A stretch of 64,000 nt of DNA from Myxococcales bacterium (lineage in GTDB: Bacteria > Myxococcota_A > Polyangia > Polyangiales > Polyangiaceae): the NCBI GenBank assembly GCA_903642325.1, contig CAHJWM010000001.1, positions 124,001 through 188,000 on the forward strand, given 5' to 3'. Made by a program: the position numbers and the translations under genes. The notes beneath the pieces were generated by a model. That model was not told the origin of the DNA. It made no database searches and saw only the letters and a list, made by a program, of their open reading frames with translations. The number at the start of each line of letters is the position of its first letter. Within the stretch, counting starts at the first letter, position 1. Below, piece by piece: positions 24,062 through 32,156 of this stretch.

Positions 24062-24751
24062 TCACTCGGAGGTCGCGCGTTCTTTGGGCGTCACCACGAG
24101 CCGACGACGCACCGCGCGCGTTTCGATGCCGAGCACGTGGACGCCGCTCAACATTCGATCGACCGCGCTGCCGAGGCGCGCCGCTACTTCTTCCTCGGCC
24201 TTGCTGCCCTCGACCCTGGTCGTAAAAATGGCGACGTAACAACGACCGACGCTCGCGCCGATCGCCATCGCGTAACCCGATATCCCTTGCGCGCTCGGTT
24301 CGACTCCGACCACGAGCTCCGTATCGAAATCCGGCGGGACTGCGAACGCACGGCGATCCACGATTGCTTCCTCGCGGACCGTTGGGATCGAGGGGCGGGT
24401 CAACCGCGCTTGAGCCTCACAATCTTCGCGACGCACCAGGCGCTCCGCGCGCCAGGTGCGCAACGCCAACTGTGAAGAGCTGGGCCCATGGTCGAGGAGT
24501 AGCCAGAGCGGCCCATCCTTGATTTGCCAGCTCGCCTTGTTTGGCAGCACGAGCTCGACCGGGAAATCGAGGGACCGCGAACGCACGCGCCGCCCTGGGC
24601 CAGCCGGTAAGTGATGGGGGTCCGGGGCTGCCGACGAGTGAGCCGGGGGGTGCCGCGCGGGTAAGCCGGCACACGCCTGAGTCACGCTGAGCGCCACGCC
24701 GCAGGTGAACAGCGAAGCCTTGAGCAAGGCGCGCACGATATCCCGATCCAT
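24062..24751 (-). CDS. Hypothetical exported protein
   Basis: A 229-residue protein with an N-terminal signal peptide (MDRDIVRALLKASLFTC ... ALSVTQACAG). The TQAC cysteine could be a weak lipobox, but TQA is a poor match, so ordinary secretion is possible. A Pro/Ser-rich linker follows, then a compact mixed domain with beta strands such as VRSRSLDFPVELVLP and YVAIFTTRVEG. No family is recognised. ATG 24751 is chosen over an earlier frame start because it immediately precedes the signal peptide. It diverges from the gene at 24796 with a 44-bp gap. Confidence 0.6.
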   Translation of the reverse strand: MDRDIVRALLKASLFTCGVALSVTQACAGLPARHPPAHSSAAPDPHHLPAGPGRRVRSRSLDFPVELVLPNKASWQIKDGPLWLLLDHGPSSSQLALRTWRAERLVRREDCEAQARLTRPSIPTVREEAIVDRRAFAVPPDFDTELVVGVEPSAQGISGYAMAIGASVGRCYVAIFTTRVEGSKAEEEVAARLGSAVDRMLSGVHVLGIETRAVRRRLVVTPKERATSE

Positions 24752-24795
24752 CCGCCGTTTGGGCGTGCTATTTCTGCCCAGACTGCGGCGCGCCC

Positions 24796-25401
24796 ATGTC
24801 ACAACGAAGTAAGCGACCGGACCCCCAGTCCGTCAAATCCGACAAGCGTGGTCAGCCCGGCCAGCGCATTCAGCCCGGTCAGCGCGACAGAGCTCGTGCG
24901 GCGCGGCGGCCCTTGGCCCCGCTGCCGGAAGTCGTGCTGGCCCGACGCCCGGCTAGCACTCCTGCACCCGCAGCCCTCGGTGCCGAGGCAGTCATCGCCG
25001 CGCCGGTGGTGGCCACAGACGAGCCGTCGACGCCGCCCAAGCGCGCCGCCCGGATCGTGACGGGCGCGACGGCGGTCGATGACAGCGAGCTCGAACGTCG
25101 TCATTTGCTTTCGCGTTTGCTGGACAGTGAAGGGCCGCATGCGGTGACGCGCGCGGCCAGCGCTTACAGAAAGGCCGGCTTCGATTTTCCCGAAGAGCAG
25201 TTGGTCCAACTCAAGCTGCTCGAGCATAAGGACGAGTCGGAAGTGTGCAGCGCGCTCGGCGTGCTGGCGGCGTTGCTCGATGAGCAGCAGCCCGAAAAGC
25301 TTCCTGTCTTCGAGCAGCGGCTGAAGCGGTTGGAGGACAGCGCTGAAGAGCCGGAGACGCGCCAGCGCGCGGCCGAGCTGCGCCGCGTGCTTCGCACTTG
25401 A
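24796..25401 (+). CDS. Hypothetical helical protein
   Basis: A 201-residue protein not recognised. The first 90 residues are basic and low-complexity (PGQRIQPGQRDRARAARRP), with an Ala/Pro-rich linker. The second half is alpha-helical and resembles HEAT/ARM-like or TPR-like packing (ELERRHLLSRLLDSEG, then CSALGVLAALLDEQQ). It begins a probable three-gene unit with the cysteine-triplet protein 18 bp downstream and a small membrane protein after that. No signal peptide is seen. Confidence 0.55.
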   Translation: MSQRSKRPDPQSVKSDKRGQPGQRIQPGQRDRARAARRPLAPLPEVVLARRPASTPAPAALGAEAVIAAPVVATDEPSTPPKRAARIVTGATAVDDSELERRHLLSRLLDSEGPHAVTRAASAYRKAGFDFPEEQLVQLKLLEHKDESEVCSALGVLAALLDEQQPEKLPVFEQRLKRLEDSAEEPETRQRAAELRRVLRT

Positions 25402-25419: not shown

Positions 25420-25851
25420 ATGGCGAAAGAATCGAAGCTCACCGCGCGTTCCTTCGAGATGAAGCTCAGAAAGCTCGTGGCGGGCCTGGGCCGTGACCGC
25501 GAGAACGACTCCTGCGTGGCCTGCGAGCGTTGCGTCGCTTGCGATTCATGCACGTTCTGCAGCGACTCCGAGCGCCTCTTGCGCTGTAATTTTTGCGTCC
25601 GTTGCGTGCAGTGCTCGGACAGTTTGCACTGCCGCGGCTCGCGGAACCTCAATGGCTGTCAGCACTGTGTCGATTCCGAAAATTGCACCGCCAGCGCTTA
25701 CGTGGTTCGCTCCGTAGCCCTCAGTGGTTGCTCGTACTGCTTCGGCTGCGTCGGCCTCACCGGGCGAGACTTCCACATTTTGAACGAGCGCTACGAGCGT
25801 CGCGACTATTTCGCCCTCACTGAGCACCTGAGTCGCGAGCTCAAGCTCTGA
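25420..25851 (+). CDS. Cysteine-triplet repeat protein
   Basis: A 143-residue protein with 17 cysteines, all between residues 32 and 110 and all at positions equal to 2 modulo 3. They run as CxxCxxC series, and the register continues through positions where Ser, Leu or Val replaces Cys. The motif C(S/V)DS recurs at 47, 65 and 83, exactly 18 residues apart. The C-terminal part (CFGCVGL, then HILNERYERRDYF) resembles, from memory, a family of repeat proteins seen in candidate-phyla bacteria. A Cys-lined solenoid or a metal-cluster protein is inferred. It sits between two unknown genes, and the start ATG is 18 bp after the upstream stop. The exact function is unknown. Confidence 0.8.
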   Translation: MAKESKLTARSFEMKLRKLVAGLGRDRENDSCVACERCVACDSCTFCSDSERLLRCNFCVRCVQCSDSLHCRGSRNLNGCQHCVDSENCTASAYVVRSVALSGCSYCFGCVGLTGRDFHILNERYERRDYFALTEHLSRELKL

Positions 25852-25854
25852 GCA

Positions 25855-26181
25855 ATGGGCGACTCCGCATTCGAAGCGCTGTGGAAAAACGTTCTCGATG
25901 AGTGGGACGAGGAACGCCGGCACGGTGCGTTCCTCGAGCACTGCGAGGCGACCGATCAGCTGGCTGAAGCCGCCGCCCGCTACCGCGGCATGAAGGGAGA
26001 TCGCGACCGCTCGGGCCTCGCCGAGAAACGACTCGCTTTCGTGGCCATCGTCGCCCTGGCCAAACTCGAAGCGACGCGCAGCCAGCCGCCACGCGCGCGC
26101 CGCAACAGCAATCTCATTCTCGCGGCAAGCTTCGGATTCGCCGCGCTCGGTCTTCTGGCCTATCTTTTGGTATCGCGTTAG
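25855..26181 (+). CDS. Small C-tail-anchored membrane protein
   Basis: A 108-residue protein with a charged helical N-terminal part (DSAFEALWKNVLDEWDEERR) and one C-terminal transmembrane helix (LILAASFGFAALGLLAYLLV), preceded by a basic patch (PPRARRNSN). This is a tail-anchor topology. It follows the cysteine-triplet gene by 3 bp, so the two are very likely co-translated. No family is recognised. It could be a membrane anchor or partner for the cysteine-triplet protein; this is inference only. Confidence 0.65.
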   Translation: MGDSAFEALWKNVLDEWDEERRHGAFLEHCEATDQLAEAAARYRGMKGDRDRSGLAEKRLAFVAIVALAKLEATRSQPPRARRNSNLILAASFGFAALGLLAYLLVSR

Positions 26182-30254: not shown

Positions 30255-30839
30255 TCAAACGAACAAGCTACTCAGCGCCATTGGGATCTGCGCATCGCCC
30301 GAGATGCGCAACTTGCCGCTCATCAGGAGCTCGAGCGGATTGGTAGTGCCGGTCTGCAGCCCCCAAAACGCGTCTACCTCGCACGACACTTCACACTCGG
30401 GGCTGACCACGTTCGGCTCCCGCCCGCCCGGCGTAACGTAAACGCGGTACGTGCTCGCACCGTCGATCACCGCGAAGGCAACGGAACCGAGCACGGCGCG
30501 GACCAACGCTACCCGTTCGGCATCGAGCGTGAGCGCCTTGAACGCGATCATCTGCCGCTCGGGAGATAGCTCGAGCGAGGCCATGCGTTCGGTACCTTGG
30601 ACCACGATGGGCACGAAGCTCTCGATTGGGATCGTGACGCGGACCACCGCGTCCGCCGCTACGCCCGCCTCTAGGCGCAATTGCCCGCCGCTAAGGCGGA
30701 ACGACCACTCCCCGACGCCGGGCACCACGAACACGATGCTACCGAGTGACGATACGCCCTCGAAGCCCCTCAATGCCGCAAAGCGGTCCGGGATGTAATG
30801 CGTGAAGAAAGACTCTGGGGACGAGGGCACGGCGGTCAT
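30255..30839 (-). CDS. SCP2-like sterol-carrier-type protein
   Basis: A 194-residue soluble protein with the look of an SCP2 lipid-transfer fold: an N-terminal helical part (ESFFTHYIPDRFAALRG), then strands FSFRL-like (EWSFRLSGGQLRLEAG), and a C-terminal amphipathic helix region NPLELLMSGKLRISGDAQIPMALSS, matching the (m)xGKlkxxGdxxla signature. Start ATG 30839. It lies 13 bp after a PilZ gene on the same strand. The lipid ligand is unknown. Confidence 0.8.
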   Translation of the reverse strand: MTAVPSSPESFFTHYIPDRFAALRGFEGVSSLGSIVFVVPGVGEWSFRLSGGQLRLEAGVAADAVVRVTIPIESFVPIVVQGTERMASLELSPERQMIAFKALTLDAERVALVRAVLGSVAFAVIDGASTYRVYVTPGGREPNVVSPECEVSCEVDAFWGLQTGTTNPLELLMSGKLRISGDAQIPMALSSLFV

Positions 30840-30852
30840 GGGGTCACGTACC

Positions 30853-31155
30853 TCAACGCTTGAAAAGCTCACTGATGGCGTGCGTTTCACGCGCGCCCAA
30901 AGAGCCGAATTGAACCCCGAAACCATCGGGCTTGGCCCATCGTACGATGGCCGGCAAGCGCAGCTCGGCTTTGGTCCCAGGGAGGCGCCCGACGATGGTA
31001 ATCTCCACGCCGAAGGCCAAGATCTCTTGGGCCTCGATGAACATTCCGCCGATGCTGATATCCTTAGCCATCCCAGACAGCGGCGCGCCGTCTTGCCGCT
31101 CGCACGACACCGCGGTTTCGATCGTGACTCGGGGGTGTGTTCGCTTGTCTTGCAC
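30853..31155 (-). CDS. PilZ domain protein
   Basis: A protein of about 100 residues. The PilZ signatures are visible: KRTHPRVTIETAV contains RxxxR-type arginines and AKDISIGGMFIEA matches DxSxxGxxI. It is followed by a beta-rich body and IVRWAKPDGFGVQFG. It probably binds cyclic di-GMP. GTG 31155 has GGAG upstream and fits the domain start; the frame remains open to 31212. It is transcribed with the SCP2-like gene. Confidence 0.82.
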   Translation of the reverse strand: MQDKRTHPRVTIETAVSCERQDGAPLSGMAKDISIGGMFIEAQEILAFGVEITIVGRLPGTKAELRLPAIVRWAKPDGFGVQFGSLGARETHAISELFKR

Positions 31156-31178
31156 GACGGACTCCGCGGGCGGGAGAC

Positions 31179-32156
31179 ATGCCACACGCTCCTGAAGACG
31201 CCCAGGGCACACAGTTGAAACGGGAGCCGAAGCTTGTCAAGAAGCCGACCGCCGGCGCCCACGATGGCCGGCCGCGTCGCGACTTTCGGCGTCATTTTCG
31301 AGGCTACGAGCTTGGTTTGCTGACCGTCGTGATGGTCCTGACGTTTGCGCTTTTGGCATTGCCTCGGGCGAGCGTGCCCGAGACGCTGCCGCTACCGCGC
31401 ATCGACCGCGGAGAGTCACGCCAGAGGGACGCACGCGAGAACCAGCTCGCCGCGAGTGCAGAGCGCGAGCCGCTGCCCTTCGAGGTGCGCGCGGTAGGCG
31501 AAGCCATCAGAAAATTCGGGGCAAGACAGGCGCAGGGCTTGGCGGCCGAGCTGGAACGACGCGAGATCCAGCAGTGCGTGGAAGAGGTGACGGCGCAGGG
31601 CCGGTTGCCCTTGCTTTTGCGTTTGCGAGCCGTACAGACGCGCTTTTTTTTGGCTGCGCTCGCGCACTTCGAAGCAAGTGGCAAGCCCAACCGCGAGCTC
31701 GACGAGCTGGGCGGCGATTTCCTGACCCGCGCGCGCGACAGCGGCTGGCTGGACGACACTCACCAAAGTTTGGCCGATGCGAGCACGCTGCGCGTGCTGT
31801 ATCAACTGCGCTGGGCGGAGCTCATCGACAAGCGCCGCGTATTTCCGTTCTCGCCTTCGCTGAACGATTGGCGCATTTACTACCGCTTTCAGATCTTGCA
31901 CCCCGAACGCGTGCTCGCCCCACCGGACCCGGGCCAGGACGACGAGGCGCGTTTGAAGTTGGTCTCCGCGTTAGCCCGTAAAGACCCGGATTATCCCGAG
32001 GCCTTCGCCAAGGGTTACCTGTACTTTCGGTTGGGCAATCTGGAGGCGGCTGCTGCATCGTACCGAGCGCAGCTGGGCAAGAGCGAATCGGGGCCTTATG
32101 CGCTTCTGGCGCGCAACTATTTGATCTACGCCCTGCAAGGCATCAGCCCCGAGTAA
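31179..32156 (+). CDS. Hypothetical single-pass membrane protein with C-terminal TPR-like helices
   Basis: A 325-residue protein with a basic N-terminus, a transmembrane helix at about residue 45-65 (ELGLLTVVMVLTFALLALP) and a periplasmic helical domain. The C-terminus reads like one TPR unit (YPEAFAKGYLYFRLGNLEAAAASYRAQL). Its start ATG 31179 follows a GGGAG with a short spacer. It lies 13 bp before mfd and diverges from the PilZ gene. Function is unknown. Confidence 0.65.
   Translation: MPHAPEDAQGTQLKREPKLVKKPTAGAHDGRPRRDFRRHFRGYELGLLTVVMVLTFALLALPRASVPETLPLPRIDRGESRQRDARENQLAASAEREPLPFEVRAVGEAIRKFGARQAQGLAAELERREIQQCVEEVTAQGRLPLLLRLRAVQTRFFLAALAHFEASGKPNRELDELGGDFLTRARDSGWLDDTHQSLADASTLRVLYQLRWAELIDKRRVFPFSPSLNDWRIYYRFQILHPERVLAPPDPGQDDEARLKLVSALARKDPDYPEAFAKGYLYFRLGNLEAAAASYRAQLGKSESGPYALLARNYLIYALQGISPE

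Follow-up and report, generated by a model that had tools for sequence, protein, structure and literature searches.

Pentapeptide- and hexapeptide-repeat beta-helices are tight quadrilateral or triangular solenoids with coils of approximately 20 or 18 residues. In beetle antifreeze proteins (AFPs) the repeat TCTxSxNCxxAx comprises 12 residues, and C2-C8 disulfides are assumed in the inner core (PMC8038014). A beta-solenoid antifreeze-like protein is also the subject of a paper that mentions neither cysteine nor Tenebrio (PMC13413566). The window analyzed here, a stretch of 64,000 nucleotides from a Myxococcales bacterium, harbors a gene for a cysteine-rich protein (hereafter Cys-solenoid protein; Table 1). 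Literature searches did not reveal a paper on this family. We propose, with a probability of approximately 0.55, that the protein is a cytosolic beta-solenoid which serves as a binding scaffold and whose coils have a geometry like that of beetle AFP.

Table 1. Features of the Cys-solenoid locus (positions within the window).
Feature	Position	Strand	Remarks
Upstream partner gene	24796..25401	+	Arg/Lys-rich N-terminus and conserved helical C-terminus
Cys-triplet beta-solenoid protein gene	25420..25851	+	143 aa, single copy in genome
N-terminal helix, predicted cap ahead of solenoid	25444..25482	+	Residues 9-21; F12 and L19 conserved
Seven 12-residue coils (predicted)	25513..25758	+	Residues 32-113; every third position inward
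Outward aromatic/His ladder, proposed binding face	25555..25773	+	One residue per coil
C-terminal signature CFGCVGLxxKDFHILNxxYxRxxYFxxTxxLxREL	25738..25848	+	Last coil and helix in orthologue model
Downstream tail-anchored protein	25855..26181	+	C-terminal TM segment starting at residue 88

Cysteine register and conservation

The 17 cysteines of the deduced protein (positions 32, 35, 38, 41, 44, 47, 56, 59, 62, 65, 71, 80, 83, 89, 104, 107 and 110) all fall on positions equal to 2 modulo 3. This single register, already described in the initial annotation, was confirmed by re-reading the open reading frame (ORF); the exact chance of its occurrence with 17 cysteines among 85 core positions is about 3e-10. 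From 32 to 110 the register has ten further positions, each occupied by Ser, Leu or Val, as had likewise been reported. Homologues obey the same modulo-3 rule: on the register reside all 682 core cysteines of 36 relatives and 1388 of the 1392 cysteines in an alignment of 74 sequences. The latter alignment did not contain a single indel over residues 29-113 (85 residues). The number of closely packed cysteines ranges from 15 to 22 per protein.

Including the genome of the window, 36 of 59 genomes carry the gene, each of them in one copy. Across the phylum, 47 of 189 genomes gave matches at E 0.001 or better, the weakest of which may be low-complexity shadow frames. By scanning GTDB species genomes, 162 relatives were confirmed. 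Eighty of them, labelled as Myxococcota, Polyangia, Myxococcales or (delta)proteobacterial MAGs and including the named genera Sorangium, Polyangium, Minicystis, Labilithrix and Archangium, were kept. The carriers belong to two classes, Polyangia and Myxococcia, and the identity among relatives across genera and both classes is 42-65%. Third codon positions vary most among the 80 relatives, and a DNA tandem-repeat array under the ORF was looked for and is absent, which indicates that the protein is under selection. The Cys-solenoid protein did not match any Pfam or NCBIfam family above the cut-off, metal families included, and it does not possess a hydrophobic N-terminal signal or signal peptide. 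A search of viral contigs with the family profile gave zero matches.

Period and predicted fold

In the window protein the motif C(S/V)DS occurs at positions 47, 65 and 83, from which a superperiod of 18 residues had been deduced. The family did not bear this out. Self-similarity of the profile (74 sequences) was 2.74 at lag 12 and 2.50 at lag 24, peaking at these two lags, while lag 18 reached 2.04; the outward columns alone gave 2.92 at lag 12 and 1.39 at lag 18. Moreover, C.DS is present jointly at the three positions in only one of 74 homologues. Judged by these sequences, the superperiod is a coincidence of the window sequence alone. A hexapeptide-like coil of 18 residues was ruled out by the lag analysis along with two AlphaFold2 (AF2) models.

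For the window protein, AF2 predicted from the 74-sequence alignment a helix (residues 9-21) and strands at 34-36, 46-48, 58-60, 70-72 and 82-84, followed by bridges. Over residues 31 to 110 the mean pLDDT was 85-96, with a drop towards either terminus. The second model, that of a myxobacterial orthologue with 44% identity, has strands starting at 30, 42, 54, 66, 78, 89 and 101 and an additional C-terminal helix. Both predictions thus show a repeat fold of 12-residue coils with core pLDDT values of about 85-96, which agrees with the period of the profile and corroborates the Cys-lined solenoid suspected initially. The strand residues of the seven coils are 35, 47, 59, 71, 83, 95 and 107. The modulo-3 rule would arise because each predicted coil turns four residues inward, three apart.

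The top solved match of the window model in a VIA-align 2 search was the Tenebrio molitor antifreeze protein (TmAFP) 1l1i (Z 7.1, 3.5 A, 84 aligned residues), tied with antigen 43b at Z 7.1. For the orthologue model 1l1i was again best (Z 6.7, 3.6 A, 83 aligned residues), the next row being one unit lower; Z values of 6.7-7.1 are not decisive alone, as unrelated repeat folds reach them. TBCC/RP2/CAP beta-helices, with Z values of 5-6 in the first of the VIA searches, were judged to be generic matches. Foldseek against the PDB alone yielded nothing below E 0.001. A profile search of PDB sequences retrieved 1ezg at E 1.9e-4 with a large composition bias (32.9 bits). At the sequence level, the period and the 1ezg match agree with the fold match to TmAFP. 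Well supported computationally are the register, the period, the conservation, the predicted fold of 12-residue beta-helix coils and the outward ladder described below.

Composition of the predicted core

The inward positions (n = 2072) are occupied by Cys (1388), Ser (340), Leu (271), Val (29), Ala (20), Gly (8), Thr (7), Ile (5) and Met (4), and none of them by a charged or imidazole ligand. Ten register positions are Cys in 91-100% of the sequences, 38, 107 and 110 in 100%, while the others exchange freely. Cys is exchanged with Ser at the +3/+9 corners and with Leu at +6, opposite the strand. A disulfide ladder was rejected on the grounds that facing cysteines did not covary at lag 6 or 12 (74 sequences) and that 32 of the 74 proteins contain an odd number of cysteines. 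These two observations and the absence of an N-terminal signal suggest to us a cytosolic protein whose core thiols are for the most part reduced.

Another explanation is a thiol switch, in which the facing cysteines 35-41, 59-65 and 83-89 would be reduced in growth and oxidized under stress, and oxidation would alter the stability or the binding of the protein. These pairs match the disulfide positions of beetle AFP and are complete in 70, 56 and 67 of 74 sequences, respectively, thus in alternate coils, versus 13 (47-53), 22 (71-77) and 0 (95-101 and 107-113) elsewhere. However, the counts are those expected from the single columns (70.1, 56.4 and 67.1), and all three pairs occur together in only 47 of 74 sequences, so that we regard such a switch as unlikely.

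The many close-packed cysteines per protein and the ten register positions with nearly constant Cys might also suggest a metallothionein-like store for metal or sulfur, in which the thiols of the lumen would serve as ligands of Cu(I), Zn or Fe-S clusters. Yet Ser, Leu and Val take the place of Cys at many inward positions, a conserved ligand set beyond packing is not recognizable, the predicted core is too narrow, and no metal family of Pfam or NCBIfam was found above the cut-off. The metal-cluster core that had been suggested initially is not supported, since inward Cys swaps with Ser and Leu and the register holds only the residues listed above, and we consider a store to be improbable. In the proposed binding scaffold the cysteines would be packing residues, mainly reduced thiols, and neither metal ligands nor obligatory disulfides.

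Surface ladder and C-terminus

The position just ahead of the inward strand residue is aromatic or His in coils 2-8: of 518 cells in 74 relatives, 510 hold Phe, Tyr or His. In the window protein this ladder consists of F46, F58, H70, H82, Y94, Y106 and F118; at position 58 most relatives have Tyr. As the ladder occupies the site of the ice-binding threonines of beetle AFP, we propose that it is a docking face for a ligand other than ice. An ice-binding protein of the beetle type would share coil length, core spacing and the best solved fold match with the Cys-solenoid, and a related phage protein is annotated as 'insect antifreeze protein'. This reading is nevertheless highly improbable: the ice-binding motif TxT was present in 0 of 518 strands (74 relatives), the outward face being aromatic/His, and a signal peptide is lacking. 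PF02420 matched neither the window protein nor its relatives and exceeded the cut-off in 0 of 39 genomes.

The sequence CFGCVGLxxKDFHILNxxYxRxxYF is nearly invariant among relatives, and the C-terminal third of the protein is highly conserved yet of low confidence in the window-protein model. For the proposed scaffold, this signature may be involved in binding of a partner. Scanning viral contigs for the pattern CFGCVGL...ILN gave one match, which was judged to be a chance occurrence. The initial annotation had suggested that this pattern also occurs in repeat proteins of candidate phyla; the related Cys-triplet proteins detected in our searches were those of phages described below.

Gene neighborhood

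The gap of 3 bp to the ORF of the tail-anchored protein (25852-25854) and the end of the upstream ORF at 25401 were verified by reading the sequence. Neither neighboring protein gave a match in searches of Pfam, NCBIfam and PHROGs. The neighbors given here are those of the gene in Polyangia; they were counted over 80 loci from the two classes together. Of 76 loci whose flank was long enough, 34 have the gene for the upstream Arg-rich helical protein adjacent. The tail-anchored protein is encoded not more than 1.5 kb downstream at 37 of 71 loci. After the Cys-solenoid gene, dtd, which judging by its sequence encodes D-aminoacyl-tRNA deacylase, was found in 37 of 71 loci; dtd and the tail-anchored protein occur together in 20. 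The tight linkage to both neighbors claimed in the initial annotation is thus real but not universal, dtd often lying between the genes. The neighborhood differs between Polyangia and Myxococcia. In the group of the window, dtd does not reside between the Cys-solenoid gene and that of the tail-anchored protein, and pal-tolQRAB follows. At the Archangium and Myxococcaceae MAG loci, the upstream partner, dtd and the tail-anchored gene are all non-adjacent.

Some further observations concern the surroundings. A dtd homologue of the window genome is located on a different contig (C40:28617-29060). The gene at 24062-24802 (-), which is without a Pfam match, was found near the cluster in 19 of 80 loci. 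An SCP2-domain ORF (30255-31295, -) overlaps in a different frame an ORF (30853-31212, -) whose product is presumably PilZ-domain-like. Because of this overlap, the true start of the SCP2 gene probably lies downstream of that of the long ORF.

Phage Cys-triplet proteins and low-complexity frames

The window protein matches the phage family phrog_15341 (function unassigned) at E 1.4e-5 over residues 32-110, to which Cys composition may contribute. Comparison of the family profile with a phage protein gave an hhalign probability of 96.9%, a score that composition may inflate. The best members of phrog_15341 found here are from Campylobacter phages; a Vibrio phage 'insect antifreeze protein' matches too. 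Campylobacter, Vibrio and Flavobacterium phages, a Campylobacter fetus plasmid and several viral contigs encode proteins in which every third residue, or nearly so, is Cys. The phage and plasmid loci are L127:2378-2752, L129:606-1031, L130:1234-1794, L131:1351-1770, L181, L187, L217 and L224. Where tested, their products had no Pfam match and belonged to the phrog_15341 group. Viral Foldseek matches were a ChoanoV1 'TNFR-Cys domain' protein (A0A5B8IEK9) and 'Caib/baif' of Campylobacter virus IBB35 (H6SUK4), both names being annotation labels only. Their predicted structures match the Cys-solenoid at E 3e-9 to 2e-4 with low to moderate TM-scores (0.15-0.53). The phage from which H6SUK4 derives also encodes the Cys-triplet protein P0003. 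For the labels 'insect antifreeze protein' and 'Caib/baif' on phage Cys-triplet proteins our findings give no support.

Cys on every third residue is common to phrog_15341 and the Cys-solenoid family. The phage proteins, however, vary in length, are almost all-Cys and are devoid of the aromatic ladder and of CFGCVGL...ILN. Only the Cys region is covered by the match; the N- and C-terminal regions are not shared, the phage ends differing by inspection. Since ladder and signature are lacking, we conclude from the sequences that the phage proteins and the window protein probably share the kind of solenoid, a likeness which does not by itself show common descent.

A (CxxC)n scan of genomes returned mostly low-complexity DNA, and the frames inspected were shadow frames, whereas among the hits of that of viral contigs a small number of phage Cys-triplet proteins seemed genuine. 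In other parts of Myxococcota genomes (L270, L272, L273, L274 and L276), CxxCxxC frames resemble for the most part shadow frames that arise from low-complexity repeats. Such frames are a source of false Cys-rich annotations. Although they occur in these genomes, the probability that the Cys-solenoid gene itself is such a frame, reading CxxCxxC by chance over a DNA repeat of low complexity, is practically nil. The notion is refuted by the indel-free conservation across genera and two classes; the lack of a tandem repeat at the locus, the single copy per carrier genome and the prevalence of changes at third codon positions also speak against it.

Discussion

In the binding scaffold that we favor, an N-terminal helix would be followed by a beta-helix of seven tight coils, 12 residues each, and by a C-terminal segment that is conserved. 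The core would be too narrow for residues other than Cys, Ser, Leu, Val or Ala and, as four residues per coil point inward three apart, all cysteines would come to lie on one register. A flat outer face would expose one Phe, Tyr or His per coil. Ladder and invariant C-terminus may dock a partner, possibly the product of a neighboring gene, and hence the protein would work as a rigid binding rod. We infer the reduced state in the cytosol, the role as a scaffold and the identity of the partner.

It is also conceivable, though we put this forward only tentatively, that cytosolic beta-solenoids with a free-thiol lumen form a widespread, unannotated class in bacteria and phages, which in Myxococcota would have given rise to a conserved scaffold, or redox-gated switch, encoded in a single copy and bearing aromatic/His residues on its docking face. 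The proposed fold explains a striking sequence rule by simple geometry. The coil geometry of beetle AFP may serve inside bacteria without an ice face and probably without disulfides. If confirmed, this would be a very tight beta-helix held by thiol packing alone, which matters for protein design, and a previously unannotated family that persists in two myxococcotal classes would gain a testable structure and a binding face.

Compared with known solenoids, the coil of 12 residues sets the Cys-solenoid apart from the pentapeptide- and hexapeptide-repeat beta-helices, which also differ in inward spacing. With TmAFP (PDB 1EZG, 1L1I; PF02420) it shares the coil length, the inward positions 2, 5, 8 and 11 and the inward orientation of the strand Cys, TmAFP being the top fold match of both AF2 models. 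The 12-residue repeat with every third residue inward, typical of insect AFPs (PF02420, IPR016133), is found in both the sequence period and the predicted models. The C2-C8 Cys pair is not present in each coil but was kept mainly in alternate ones, both Cys occurring in most sequences in only three of seven coils. Unlike TmAFP, the Cys-solenoid has Cys also at coil positions 5 and 11 and no signal peptide, contains terminal helices as well as a long C-terminal signature, and carries an aromatic/His ladder instead of the TxT ice face.
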